DNA of 64,000 nucleotides from Roseovarius sp. A-2 (GTDB lineage: Bacteria; Pseudomonadota; Alphaproteobacteria; Rhodobacterales; Rhodobacteraceae), in the NCBI RefSeq assembly GCF_002072155.1, contig NZ_BDIY01000014.1, positions 1 to 64,000 of the forward strand, written 5' to 3'. A model generated the notes under the pieces. The model was not told where the DNA came from. It saw only the letters and a program-made list of their open reading frames with translations, and did no database searches. Numbering within the stretch: position 1 is the first letter of the stretch; each line of letters opens with the position of its first letter. The translations under genes and the position numbers were made by a program. This document shows positions 5,133 through 9,101 of this stretch, in pieces.

Positions 5133-6005
5133 TCAGCCGTGGCTTGGTATCGCGCGGTGATCGCCCAGGGCGTCGCGCATCGAATGGCGCAGGCGTTCTA
5201 GGCCGCGCTCGCGCAATTGCCGGACACGCTCGCGCGATATGCCGTAGACCGTGCCCAGCTGTTCGAGCGTCATGGGCGGATCCTTGAGCACGGTCGAGAC
5301 GATGATCACCCGCTCCCGGTCGGGCAGTTTACCGAAATGGGTCTTCGCCTCCTTCCAGAAGGTGCGGCGATCCAGGCGGTCAGCGACATCCTGTTCGACA
5401 TTGGAATTCGGGTCCTCGAGAAGGTGAATGATGTCATCGCCCTCGCCCTGCGCTGCGGGCTGATTGAGCGAGCTGTCATTGCCCGCAAAGGCCAGTCTGA
5501 AGCCGTCAAGCTCTGACGGCTCGAGCCCGAGGGCGGTGGCGACGCGCAGGTTTCTGGCCTCGCGGGTCTCGCCGGGGGGGGCGTTCACGTCATCCTCGAG
5601 CCGGTGGAGGTTGAAGAACACCTTGCGCGACTTGGCGGTGCGCGTGCGCTGCACCAGAGACCAGGTGCGAATGCGGTATTCCTGCAATTCGGCCCTGATC
5701 CACCAGGCAGCATAGGTCGAGAAGCGAAAGCCCTTTTCCGGGTCAAACCCGTTCGCGGCCTTGATCAGGCCGATATAGGCGTGTTGCAGCAGGTCGGGAT
5801 CGTCGAGTTTCTTGTTGCGCGAATGGCGCTTGGCGGTCGCCATGGCGAGCGGGGCGAAGGCGTTGACCAAACGGTTTCGCGCCGCGACGTCGCGGTTTTC
5901 CTGCCAGGCGCGCGCCAGATGCTGCTCTTGCTGTGCGCTGAGAAAGCCCGGACGGGGCCGGTTGCCATGTGTCTTGGGGTCGCTCGGGATGAAGGGTTTG
6001 TTCAT
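5133..6005 (-). CDS. rpoH: RpoH-type alternative sigma factor (sigma-32 family)
   Basis: 290 residues of the sigma-70 group 3 (heat-shock) family. Region 2 carries FRFSTYAAWWIRAELQEY and WSLVQ, which match RpoH rather than RpoD. Region 4 ends with GISRERVRQLRERGLERLR, the -35 recognition helix. It directs RNA polymerase to stress promoters; Rhodobacterales often have two RpoH copies, and this may be the RpoHII type. The ATG at 6005 is preferred over one 42 bp upstream because GGCGGGG precedes it. The upstream frame would also start inside the promoter. A near-consensus promoter with a palindrome over its -10 lies just upstream, shared with the divergent marR gene. Confidence 0.9.
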   Translation of the reverse strand: MNKPFIPSDPKTHGNRPRPGFLSAQQEQHLARAWQENRDVAARNRLVNAFAPLAMATAKRHSRNKKLDDPDLLQHAYIGLIKAANGFDPEKGFRFSTYAAWWIRAELQEYRIRTWSLVQRTRTAKSRKVFFNLHRLEDDVNAPPGETREARNLRVATALGLEPSELDGFRLAFAGNDSSLNQPAAQGEGDDIIHLLEDPNSNVEQDVADRLDRRTFWKEAKTHFGKLPDRERVIIVSTVLKDPPMTLEQLGTVYGISRERVRQLRERGLERLRHSMRDALGDHRAIPSHG

Positions 6006-6030
6006 GATCCCCGCCTGTGACGATAACTTG

Positions 6031-6088
6031 TTTCGATTCGAAATCATATAGGTGTATGCGCTCTTGTCAAACTGGTTTCGATTCGATA
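6031..6088. promoter_or_regulatory. Back-to-back rpoH/marR promoters with two palindromic operators
   Basis: On the minus strand TTGACA (6070-6065), 16 bp and TATGAT (6048-6043) form a near-consensus promoter for the sigma-factor gene, with a start expected near 6036. On the plus strand TTGTCA (6064-6069), 17 bp and TATCGG (6087-6092) form a weaker promoter for marR, so the two -35 boxes overlap. The palindrome TTTCGATTCGAAA (6031-6043) covers the rpoH -10/+1. A near copy, TTTCGATTCGATA (6076-6088), covers the marR -10. The arrangement fits a repressor, most simply the adjacent MarR protein, controlling both genes; this is inferred. Confidence 0.65.
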
Positions 6089-6098
6089 TCGGTTTTGC

Positions 6099-6701
6099 AT
6101 GTCATCCCGAAGTCACACCACCGACCGTCTGGAAAAGCTGGCCGAGATGCTGGTACATGTCGGGCGATCCGCGCGTGCCGAGGGGCGCGAGGATATCCTG
6201 ACCGCCGCGCAATGGACGGCCCTGCGGTTCTTTGCCCGCGCCAACCGGGCCTCGCGCACGCCCTCGGCCTTTGCCAGCTTTCAGGCGACGACACGGGGCA
6301 CGGCCTCGCAGGTGATCAAGTCATTGGTGCGGGGCGGATATCTGGAACGGCATGCCTCGGAGACCGACAAGCGCAGCGCGCGCTTTGAGGTGACGACGCG
6401 AGGCCGCGAGATCCTCGAACGTGACCCGCTTCGCCACCTTGTTTCGGCCCTTGCCGGGCTGAGCGAGGCCGATCACACCACCCTCGCCCGCGCGCTTCCG
6501 GAGATCGCCTCGAACCTCGCACGCCGTCGTGGTGATCGCGGTTTTGGCACCTGCGGCGATTGCCGCTATTTCGAAGATCGCGACGGGGCTGCCTATTGCG
6601 CCTGCGTGGCCAGCGACCTTGCCCCGTTCGAGATCGGTCAGCTTTGCGCGAATTTCTCCACCACCCCGACAGAGACCGAGCCCACAGGATCCAAGCCATG
6701 A
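6099..6701 (+). CDS. MarR-family regulator with a C-terminal cysteine motif
   Basis: 200 residues. Residues ~10-140 are a MarR winged helix (LTAAQWTALRFF, GTASQVIKSLVRGGYLER, TDKRSARFEVTTRG). An unusual tail follows with Cys152, Cys155, Cys167, Cys169 and Cys183 (CGDCRYF ... YCACV ... LCANF), a spacing that suggests a metal or Fe-S site. No Shine-Dalgarno sequence precedes the ATG, and the predicted start of transcription falls on it, so the message may be leaderless. The stop overlaps the mrp ATG (ATGA), indicating translational coupling. The context implies a regulator sensing Fe-S, metal or redox state; the ligand is unknown. Confidence 0.88.
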   Translation: MSSRSHTTDRLEKLAEMLVHVGRSARAEGREDILTAAQWTALRFFARANRASRTPSAFASFQATTRGTASQVIKSLVRGGYLERHASETDKRSARFEVTTRGREILERDPLRHLVSALAGLSEADHTTLARALPEIASNLARRRGDRGFGTCGDCRYFEDRDGAAYCACVASDLAPFEIGQLCANFSTTPTETEPTGSKP

Positions 6702-7885
6702 GCCAGACCAACCAGAATGACGACCCGCGCAGCGGCCTGCCCGCAATGATCGCAGTCAGCAGCGGCAAGGGCGGTGTCGGCAAATCGACCGTGACGGTCA
6801 ATCTCGCGCTCGCCCTGCGCGAAAGCGGCTTGCGCGTCGGGATCGTCGATGCCGATCTTTACGGCCCCTCGATCCCCGGCATGCTGGGGCTGGCCGAGAG
6901 CGGCACTCCCGCCATGTCGCCCGCGAAAAAGGTGATTCCCGCAGAGGGGCATGGCATCAAGGTGATCTCGATGGCGATGCTGACCAGCGACGACAAACCC
7001 GCCGTGCTGCGCGGGCCGATGGTGACCAAGTACTTGCAGATGTTCATCACGCAGGTCGATTGGGCGGGCATCGACCTGTTGCTGCTCGACCTACCGCCGG
7101 GGACGGGGGATATTCAACTCACTTTGGCGCAGGCCTTTCCGCTGACCGGTGCGGTGGTGGTGACGACGCCGCAGGACGTCAGCCTGCGGATCGTGCGGCG
7201 CGGGCTGCGGATGATGGAACAAGTCAACGTGCCGATCCTCGGCGTGGTCGAGAACATGAGCGGCTTTACCTGCCCGTGCTGCGGCACGGTCACGGATATT
7301 TTCAGTCAGGGCGGCGGTGCGCGGATTGCGCAGGCGCTGCAGGTGCCGTTTCTGGGCAGCGTGCCGCTTGACCCGGAGGTGGTGGAGAGCGGCGATAGCG
7401 GGCGGCCCGCCATCCTGAGCGCGCCGCAGAGCAAGGCGGCGCAGGCGTATCGCGATGTGGCCTCGGCGCTCTCGGGCCGTGTGGATGGGGCCCGGCGCGG
7501 TCTGCACATCCCGTTCGACTGGCAGGTGACCAAGGGCACGGGACAGCCCGCCCCCGGTGCCGTCGATCCGGACGGCAACCCGGAATTGCCGGTCGCATTG
7601 CGCTATGACGATGCCACCCTGCGGATCACATGGGAAGACGGGGCCGAGATGGCGGTGAGCCCGCGCGACCTGCGGCTCGCCTGCCAATGCGCCGCCTGCC
7701 GCGACGAGATGTCGGGCGCGCGCCTGCTCGATCCCGCGAGCGTGCCGCTGGACGTGGCACCCACGCGGATCTGGAATGTCGGAAATTACGGGATCGGTGT
7801 GGCGTTCAGCGATGGTCACCGTTCGGGGATTTATACCTTCAAGGCGCTGCGCGCGATGGAGGCGAGCGATCTCGAAGATGTCTGA
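6698..7885 (+). CDS. mrp: Mrp/NBP35-type Fe-S carrier ATPase with C-terminal DUF971 domain
   Basis: 395 residues. Residues ~14-262 are a Mrp/ApbC P-loop ATPase with deviant Walker A GKGGVGKS (23-30), DLPPGTGD (131-138) and the cluster-binding CPCC motif (193-196). Residues ~268-395 are a DUF971 (gamma-butyrobetaine hydroxylase N-terminal-like) domain with Cys329-x-Cys331-x2-Cys334 and His374, matching the zinc-ligand pattern of that fold. The N-terminal DUF59/FSCA domain of many Mrp proteins is absent. It should bind and transfer Fe-S clusters in the cytoplasm. It lies in an overlapped operon with marR and nfu; its stop overlaps the nfu start region by 8 bp. Confidence 0.92.
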   Translation: MSQTNQNDDPRSGLPAMIAVSSGKGGVGKSTVTVNLALALRESGLRVGIVDADLYGPSIPGMLGLAESGTPAMSPAKKVIPAEGHGIKVISMAMLTSDDKPAVLRGPMVTKYLQMFITQVDWAGIDLLLLDLPPGTGDIQLTLAQAFPLTGAVVVTTPQDVSLRIVRRGLRMMEQVNVPILGVVENMSGFTCPCCGTVTDIFSQGGGARIAQALQVPFLGSVPLDPEVVESGDSGRPAILSAPQSKAAQAYRDVASALSGRVDGARRGLHIPFDWQVTKGTGQPAPGAVDPDGNPELPVALRYDDATLRITWEDGAEMAVSPRDLRLACQCAACRDEMSGARLLDPASVPLDVAPTRIWNVGNYGIGVAFSDGHRSGIYTFKALRAMEASDLEDV

Positions 7886-9101
7886 CGTTACACAGCCCAG
7901 GCGCCGGATCCGCGCCCAGGCCTCAGACCGCGATCCGACGGCCATGCGGTTCCTGCTCGACAGCGATATTCAGCCCGGCCAGAGTGCGCGCTTCACGGCG
8001 GCCGAGGCGGGTAGCGCCCCCTTGGCCGAAGCCCTTTTTGCCATCGACGGGGTGGCGCAGGTGCAGGTCAGCGGCGCGTCGATCCATGTCCGGCGCGTCG
8101 ACGGGGCAGACTGGGCGGCCCTGAAGCCGCGCATCGCAGAGGCGATCCGCACGGTCCTTGATACCAGCGACCATCCGCTTGGCGCGGCGCAGGCGCACCG
8201 GGATGACGATGCGCGCATCTTGAGCCGGGTGCAGGACCTGCTCGACCGGCAGGCCAATCCGGCGATTGCCGCGCATGGCGGCAGTGTGCGCGTTGACCGG
8301 GTGGAGAAGGCCCGCGTCTATCTGCGCTTTGCCGGGGGGTGCCAGGGCTGTGCGGCCTCGTCGCAAACCCTGCGCGAGGGGATCGAGACGATGCTGCGCG
8401 CGGCCCTGCCCGAGATCGCGGAGATCATCGACGTGACCGATCACGACGCCGGGGTGAACCCCTATTACACGTCCGATGATGGCCCGTCGCCAAAGTTGAT
8501 GCGCCCGGTTCCCGCCACGGTCGTGGATCGCAGTGAGGGCGAGTTGCGGATCGACCCGGAGTTTCTGGCACGGCGTCTCGGGCTGACACCGGACACGCTG
8601 TCGGCGGGCCTCGCCAATGGCGATATCGAGCGTCATGTCGAGACGCGCGCCGGTCAGAGCGGTCCAATCACCCGCGTCGCCGTGTTTGCGCCGACCCGGG
8701 CCTGGGCTGCGGATCTGCACGACGACGGCCGGATTTTCGAGGTGCCGCCGCCGCGCAGATCGACACCGGAAAAGGCGCAGGATCAAACCCTCGCCGACCG
8801 GCTGCGCGCGCATCTTGCGCGGCTCGGCCCCGAGGAGATACCGATCACCTATGGCGCGCTGGCGCGGGGCGTGGGGCTCTATCTGCCCGGCTCGGTGCGC
8901 AAGGTGACCGCAGCGCTGGAAACCACGATGCGCGAGGATGCCGCCGCCGGTCGGCCCTTTGTGGCGGCACAGGTGGTCAACCGTCATTCCGGAGTGCCGG
9001 GGCAGGGGTTCTTTGATCTGGCAGAACAGCTTGGCACGCCATTGGTGCCCGATCCGGCGGTTCTGGCCCGCTATCGCCAAGGCCTGCCCGCCCGCGCCTG
9101 A
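7878..9101 (+). CDS. Multidomain Nfu-type Fe-S scaffold protein
   Basis: 407 residues. Residues ~20-95 resemble the Nfu N-terminal domain. Residues ~112-190 are a NifU C-terminal domain with the cluster-binding CxxC in GGCQGCAASS (Cys155, Cys158). Two further parts follow: ~222-290, which resembles a small Rhodobacterales domain (DUF6522-like, from memory), and ~303-390, with ITYGALARGVGL, GSVRKVTAALE and GFFDLAEQLG, which I recognise only as a recurring uncharacterised module. Ordinary Nfu proteins are about half this length. The start overlaps the mrp end, so the two are probably translated together. Likely role: Fe-S cluster scaffold or delivery, with the extra domains giving target choice. 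Confidence 0.88.
   Translation: MSDVTQPRRRIRAQASDRDPTAMRFLLDSDIQPGQSARFTAAEAGSAPLAEALFAIDGVAQVQVSGASIHVRRVDGADWAALKPRIAEAIRTVLDTSDHPLGAAQAHRDDDARILSRVQDLLDRQANPAIAAHGGSVRVDRVEKARVYLRFAGGCQGCAASSQTLREGIETMLRAALPEIAEIIDVTDHDAGVNPYYTSDDGPSPKLMRPVPATVVDRSEGELRIDPEFLARRLGLTPDTLSAGLANGDIERHVETRAGQSGPITRVAVFAPTRAWAADLHDDGRIFEVPPPRRSTPEKAQDQTLADRLRAHLARLGPEEIPITYGALARGVGLYLPGSVRKVTAALETTMREDAAAGRPFVAAQVVNRHSGVPGQGFFDLAEQLGTPLVPDPAVLARYRQGLPARA

Follow-up and report, generated by a model that had tools for sequence, protein, structure and literature searches.

A putative two-way switch between a cysteine-tailed MarR regulator with Fe-S carrier genes and an RpoH-like sigma factor, predicted from paired palindromes in Roseovarius sp. 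A-2 and its relatives

Autoregulated divergent switches of the MarR family follow a general scheme with palindromic operators. SufR, a winged-helix regulator carrying a 4Fe-4S cluster on its C-terminal cysteines, controls Fe-S biogenesis genes. IscR is a member of the Rrf2 family, and RpoHII is controlled by RpoE and its anti-sigma factor, without a MarR protein. ArnR is a winged-helix regulator that binds DNA only with a 4Fe-4S cluster on its C-terminal cysteines (PMC12343034). At least two RpoH paralogues are present in several alphaproteobacteria, with the targets of most being little known (PMC3441632), and photooxidative stress destroys Fe-S clusters (PMC6956336).

As in the described MarR divergent switches, the locus presented here has a winged-helix MarR protein with palindromes at its own and at the divergent promoter; unlike in those, the divergent gene encodes an RpoH-type sigma factor, and the regulator has a four-cysteine tail without a sequence relative among solved structures. 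The MarR protein shares with ArnR and SufR an N-terminal winged helix and conserved C-terminal cysteines, but in ArnR the conserved cysteines number three and the targets are nitrate reductase and hmp, the consulted sections of PMC12343034 describe no sigma target for it, and the cluster of the MarR protein is a prediction. RpoHI and RpoHII of Rhodobacter sphaeroides are likewise RpoH-type stress sigma factors (PMC3441632, sections consulted), whereas the sigma factor of this locus is a further paralogue, and the word MarR is absent from the text of PMC3441632. The IscR protein of isc-suf in Rhodobacter likewise represses Fe-S genes locally in bacteria related to this one (PMC4618611), but it has a different operator and no adjacent sigma factor. 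Among the literature matches listed there was no report of a circuit of MarR and an RpoH-like sigma factor, and none on a coupling between a heat-shock-type sigma factor and Fe-S supply; subscription papers lay outside the search, and the absence of such reports is unproven.

The window, i.e., the whole 64,000-nucleotide stretch of DNA that was analysed, contains the following features of the locus:

5133–6005, minus strand: RpoH-like sigma factor gene, 290 aa (Sigma70_r2, Sigma70_r4), start taken from orthologue alignments
6031–6043, no strand: operator 1 (putative), TTTCGATTCGAAA, at the end of the sigma -10 and the likely start site, 22.2 of 22.2 bits
6043–6048, minus strand: sigma promoter -10, TATGAT
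6064–6070, no strand: TTGTCAA, common -35 element (TTGTCA on the plus strand, 6064–6069; TTGACA on the minus strand, 6070–6065)
6076–6088, no strand: operator 2 (putative), TTTCGATTCGATA, inside the MarR promoter spacer, 21.9 bits
6087–6092, plus strand: putative MarR promoter -10, TATCGG, register kept in relatives
6099–6701, plus strand: MarR-family regulator gene, 200 aa (PF12802), C-terminal C152, C155, C167 and C183
6698–7885, plus strand: Mrp/ApbC Fe-S carrier ATPase gene with a GBBH-like_N domain (PF10609, PF06155); queries began at 6701
7878–9101, plus strand: NfuA-type Fe-S carrier gene (Nfu_N, NifU), long in its C-terminal part, start placed by comparison with relatives; the query began at 7905

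The gap is bounded by the sigma gene (5133–6005, minus) and the MarR gene (6099–6701, plus). The mechanical open reading frame of the sigma gene begins at 6047 and overruns operator 1, but sigma orthologues align starting at the ATG at 6005 (MNKP...), and both operators were therefore taken as intergenic. In R. tolerans, the sigma, MarR, Mrp and NfuA proteins share 81–93% identity with those of the window. The first-pass annotation, made from the letters of the window, had described here a promoter towards the sigma gene, a promoter towards marR, overlapping -35 boxes and a pair of near-identical palindromes, and all of these are present: TTGACA-N16-TATGAT lies on the minus strand (6070–6065 and 6048–6043), TTGTCA-N17-TATCGG on the plus strand (6064–6069 and 6087–6092), positions 6065–6069 are common to both -35 boxes, and the palindromes occupy 6031–6043 and 6076–6088, 45 bp apart from start to start. 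The sigma promoter is the sole promoter-like match in 5900–6300, where shuffles gave a mean of 0.1. The MarR -10 is poor in the window, as TATCGG agrees with TATAAT at three of six positions, and its register fits the TAYYA found 3' of the operator in relatives. The palindromes had been placed on the sigma -10/+1 and on the marR -10, which holds in part: the first covers the likely start-site region of the sigma promoter and touches only the last base of its -10, and the second fills the spacer and reaches two bases into the marR -10. Due to the common -35, two polymerases should exclude each other.

The sigma protein contains regions 2 and 4 (PF04542, 51.2 bits; PF04545, 48.6 bits) and scores below the RpoH equivalog cut-offs (TIGR02392, 181 against 323.1; PRK07500, 204.9 against 315), which is why we call it RpoH-like and do not file it as RpoH; RpoHII of this genome is likewise under the TIGR02392 cut-off (273.9), the names RpoHI and RpoHII having been assigned to the paralogues of this genome from the order of their scores. 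In a tree of 100 rows, the protein stands among MarR-linked sigma factors (smallest starred groups of 2 and 9 rows) and apart from RpoHI and RpoHII of its own genome, with the deeper order and the root being unsure, while this RpoHII groups with those of genomes G004 and G034 (100/100), away from the window sigma. The earlier description as RpoH-like is supported, with the qualification that the protein is neither RpoHI nor RpoHII of the genome; by sequence, it is a third RpoH-type sigma factor, a further paralogue. The same genome has at C28:8181–8945 (L153) another sigma factor, with 114 bits to the RpoH model and a very long branch in the sigma tree.

The MarR domain scores above the curated thresholds (PF12802, 42.7 bits against 27; PF01047, 26.5 against 24.6), and the AlphaFold model of the protein (mean pLDDT 76.4; tail 62–70 and lower) retrieved FabT, SlyA, MepR and MarR with Foldseek (E down to 2.4e-06), with structures of ZitR and AdcR also among the matches. 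All four cysteines, C152, C155, C167 and C183, are kept in each of 120 aligned homologues, which were retrieved with an alignment that includes the tail, and 63 of the 120 have the pattern C-x2-C-x11-C-x15-C; weaker relatives without the tail occur (e.g., L022, and matches that stop near position 140). A sequence search of solved structures with the tail gave one chance-level match (E 4.3) and no relative, and the tail on its own gave a model too poor for a fold search. The tail may resemble the HiPIP-like Fe-S subunits of glycyl-radical enzymes. Downstream, the ATG of Mrp overlaps the MarR stop, and Mrp and the NfuA-type protein, which by family are Fe-S carriers, are second copies in this genome; Mrp lies within 1.2 kb after MarR in 57/81 loci. 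The four cysteines most likely hold an Fe-S cluster, and Fe-S or redox control is a well-founded guess for which the evidence consists of the conserved cysteines and the Fe-S-carrier neighbours.

To hypothesize, one autoregulated Cys-tailed MarR represses both promoters, senses the loss of its Fe-S cluster and releases the sigma factor together with spare carriers, and this is the reading towards which we lean, if only by a little. A MarR dimer on each 13-bp palindrome would block RNA polymerase at the MarR-Mrp-NfuA operon and at the divergent sigma gene; at operator 2 it would most likely occupy the spacer that separates -35 from -10 in the marR promoter, and at operator 1 the start region on the sigma side. 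With the cluster lost, damaged or undelivered, MarR would let go of both promoters, clusters would then come from the second Mrp and NfuA, and the third RpoH-type sigma factor would convert the local signal into a wider programme. Binding and repression are inferred in this proposal, as are the cluster, the way in which the response runs and the sigma regulon. If the cysteines do hold an Fe-S cluster, the circuit would couple a heat-shock-type sigma factor to the supply of Fe-S clusters.

The same double operator and MarR protein would also serve if the cysteines formed a zinc site or a thiol-oxidation switch and the signals were oxidants, electrophiles or metals. MarR-family zinc sensors and thiol sensors are known, the C-x2-C ... 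C ... C pattern suits zinc equally, and the tail is modelled at low confidence with short strands and a helix, which would also be in line with such a site. We nevertheless find zinc or thiol sensing rather unlikely, since Fe-S-carrier neighbours fit a general oxidant or zinc response less well, and since all four cysteines are conserved, while one or two are usually enough for a thiol switch.

The comparison of operators began from relatives of the MarR protein. An unconstrained de novo motif search, run on 77 of 80 upstream regions of MarR relatives, returned RTTTCGAWTCGMTAYYA, with a log-likelihood of 889 against 53 for one single-base-shuffled set, the rows of upstream regions not being independent. 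Made symmetric, this motif gave the scoring matrix (maximum 22.2 bits; site threshold 11 bits), and a scan of the 64-kb window with it found no site above 11 bits besides the two operators. The related loci are the best 80 of 398 relatives confirmed by the scan. Together with the window, the sigma gene is divergent in 53 of them (32 followed by Mrp and 21 without Mrp), 24 have MarR-Mrp without sigma, 2 lack both partners, and contig ends truncate the remaining 2. Operator counts cover 79 MarR loci, i.e., the window and 78 named records, and in 77 of these the motif adjoins MarR. The palindromes are thus conserved at Rhodobacterales-type loci, a lack of conservation in relatives being what the first-pass annotation had itself named as speaking against its proposal.

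Two operators are present in 50/53 loci with the divergent RpoH-like sigma gene against 7/26 without it (Fisher p 8e-10, a value that ignores descent). The tree of the 79 MarR proteins shows 13 changes in the presence of sigma and 12 in the number of operators, and a test corrected for descent found five independent pairs on supported branches, of which on average 2.9 agree and 0.1 oppose; the link is not significant once descent is counted (p at least 0.125), because five pairs are too few. The exceptions are L081, L105 and L111 (sigma, one operator), L055, L057, L064, L076, L083, L088 and L104 (no sigma, two operators), and L063 and L066 (neither operator nor sigma). Among the 50 sigma loci with two operators, the spacing is 45 bp in 28 and 43–46 bp in 45, with outliers of 16 bp (three loci) and 50 bp (two loci). 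TTGTCAA precedes the MarR-side operator in 43/53 loci with sigma against 8/24 without, the denominator being 24 as two of the 26 sigma-less loci have no site, and TTGCCAA, which weakens the -35 in the sigma direction, was seen in 6/24 sigma-less loci and 0/53 sigma loci. The MarR start codon lies 10–11 nt after the operator in 54/77 loci, so the transcript should start at or beside the AUG, and a leaderless mRNA is predicted.

A search for conserved neighbourhoods returned sigma, MarR, Mrp, NfuA and their shadow frames as the interpretable, widely shared clusters, and one further cluster in 28 loci. In three loci, a protein of ~92–100 aa that looks helix-turn-helix-like replaces sigma behind the operator pair (L064:5607–5882, L083:5556–5846 and L088:5580–5882, minus strand); the one tested against Pfam, from L064, had no match over the cut-off. 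An Rrf2-family regulator is divergent from the Cys-tailed MarR in the place of sigma at L203:4176–4631 and L104:5407–5871.

Within the bacterial family of the strain the Cys-tailed MarR is patchy, as it was found in 50/394 sampled genomes (E up to 1e-20). In a sample of the whole class, 91/385 genomes have a MarR relative (E up to 1e-12), and the Cys tail is absent from some of these relatives. Forty class-wide regions were compared, 36 outside the family and 4 inside; sigma is divergent from MarR in 24/40, all among the 36 outside and belonging to 13 other families, and 35/40 have a site above 11 bits close to MarR, the five without one being L207, L220, L228, L232 and L233. The linked sigma factors of 11 class-wide genomes score 256–297 bits with the RpoH model, above the 181 of the window and below the cut-off of 323. 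Outside the family, Nfu is a neighbour of MarR in L203, L214 and L231; no other common downstream partner was seen at the class-wide loci. It is possible, and we put it forward tentatively, that across much of Alphaproteobacteria a so far unrecognised Fe-S sensor of the MarR family controls the transcription of an RpoH-type sigma factor, and that in Rhodobacterales this sensor also releases a dedicated spare set of Fe-S carriers; if so, some RpoH paralogues would answer Fe-S status and not heat or RpoE. More distant Cys-tailed MarR relatives have secreted-looking proteins of ~250 aa divergent from them (L212, L225, L230 and L234), the two tested having no Pfam match and one family member being cut by its stretch, and L225 has a MOSC-domain gene after MarR.

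Another reading is that the palindromes are bound by a different regulator, or that MarR acts as an activator or as a looping pair, so that sigma is not simply repressed by MarR. The spacing of 43–46 bp, fixed in most sigma loci, could suit a looped or cooperative complex, and L064, L083, L088 and L104 have other putative regulators on the sigma side; however, the motif stands beside MarR in 77/79 and 35/40 loci whatever the partner gene, a single site suffices where sigma is absent, and the position of operator 2 between -35 and -10 suits repression, which makes this reading improbable. The simplest reading assigns one operator to each promoter, with no loop, given that the second site mostly disappears along with sigma. 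The comparison strongly supports the earlier suggestion that both promoters could be under a single repressor, namely the neighbouring Cys-tailed MarR: the palindromes are conserved in relatives, they accompany this MarR family also in distant genomes where the gene partners differ, and loci without sigma mostly have no second site. Counted against the MarR switch are the exceptions in operator number, the link to sigma that falls short of significance after correction for descent, the five class-wide loci without a site, the weaker relatives without the tail, the low confidence of the tail model and the poor MarR -10 of the window. A common -35 flanked by two operators and kept in many genera would represent a clean natural design of a two-way switch, and the conserved operator with its repressor offers a direct handle on the signal (one protein, ~60 bp) and on the sigma regulon.

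Natural separations of the genes are also informative. G441 is the record to which L063 belongs. Its sigma gene is located behind NfuA, ~3 kb away from the start of MarR, and retains a pair of operators at a spacing of 45 bp, whereas the MarR gene there shows none. In G013, an Mrp-NfuA operon preceded only by a remnant matching MarR residues 111–189 retains a strong operator with TTGTCAA, and ~14 kb away lies a complete MarR gene that has both a divergent sigma gene and two operators. In the six genomes searched, separate copies are 46–48% identical for Mrp and 32–36% for Nfu, and the only site above 11 bits within the 1.5 kb flanks of 13 such separate loci is internal to a gene (L310). Beside MarR, G015 and G293 have sigma and lack Mrp; both contain only separate Mrp/Nfu copies, and RpoHI and RpoHII of this genome have no upstream operator within the stretches scanned. 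In the cases studied, the operator therefore tracks its target rather than the neighbourhood.

The 17-bp consensus was found within one mismatch in 17 of 20 genomes with a Cys-tailed MarR, most of the listed places being MarR loci; off-locus places were inspected in part (G013, G022, G199, G253, G034 and G441). A strong operator-like match in G022 (L298) was set aside as chance, being inside a frame that resembles thiamine pyrophosphokinase. In G441, three operator-like sites (L300:14236–14308) lie upstream of a frame resembling lipoyl synthase, which is an Fe-S enzyme; the contig is the one that also carries the MarR operon, and a ferredoxin-like frame and an Nfu relative are in the vicinity.

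In the window alone, a search with two mismatches gave four strand-matches, a number also reached by 9/100 shuffles, and this indecisive test was dropped in favour of the matrix learned from relatives. In its own genome, the 13-bp core occurs at six other places at one mismatch (reversed control 2+1), while for the 17-bp consensus only the two window operators are within one mismatch and 10 places are found at two (reversed pattern 3+3, i.e., 6). That the palindromes arose by chance and have no role is very improbable in spite of the shuffles that match the two-mismatch count and the six further places of the core, as the spacing is fixed in many genera, the background above 11 bits in related contigs outside the gap is 18 per 826,852 positions, and operators persist after the genes separate, so that the comparison speaks strongly against chance.

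The genome also has TTTCGGTTCGAAA at C1:20874, C3:201513 and C4:219101, beside different genes, one of which resembles a universal stress protein. A reading of these places (L003–L005) as tRNA T-arms was dropped, since ARAGORN finds no tRNA there. Around TTTCGGTTCGAAA, ~35 bp (AGAAAAGTTGAYAG...TTTCGGTTCGAAATYGCGC) are common to L003, L004 and L005, near 1480–1530, and the repeats are perhaps another operator or the end of a mobile element.
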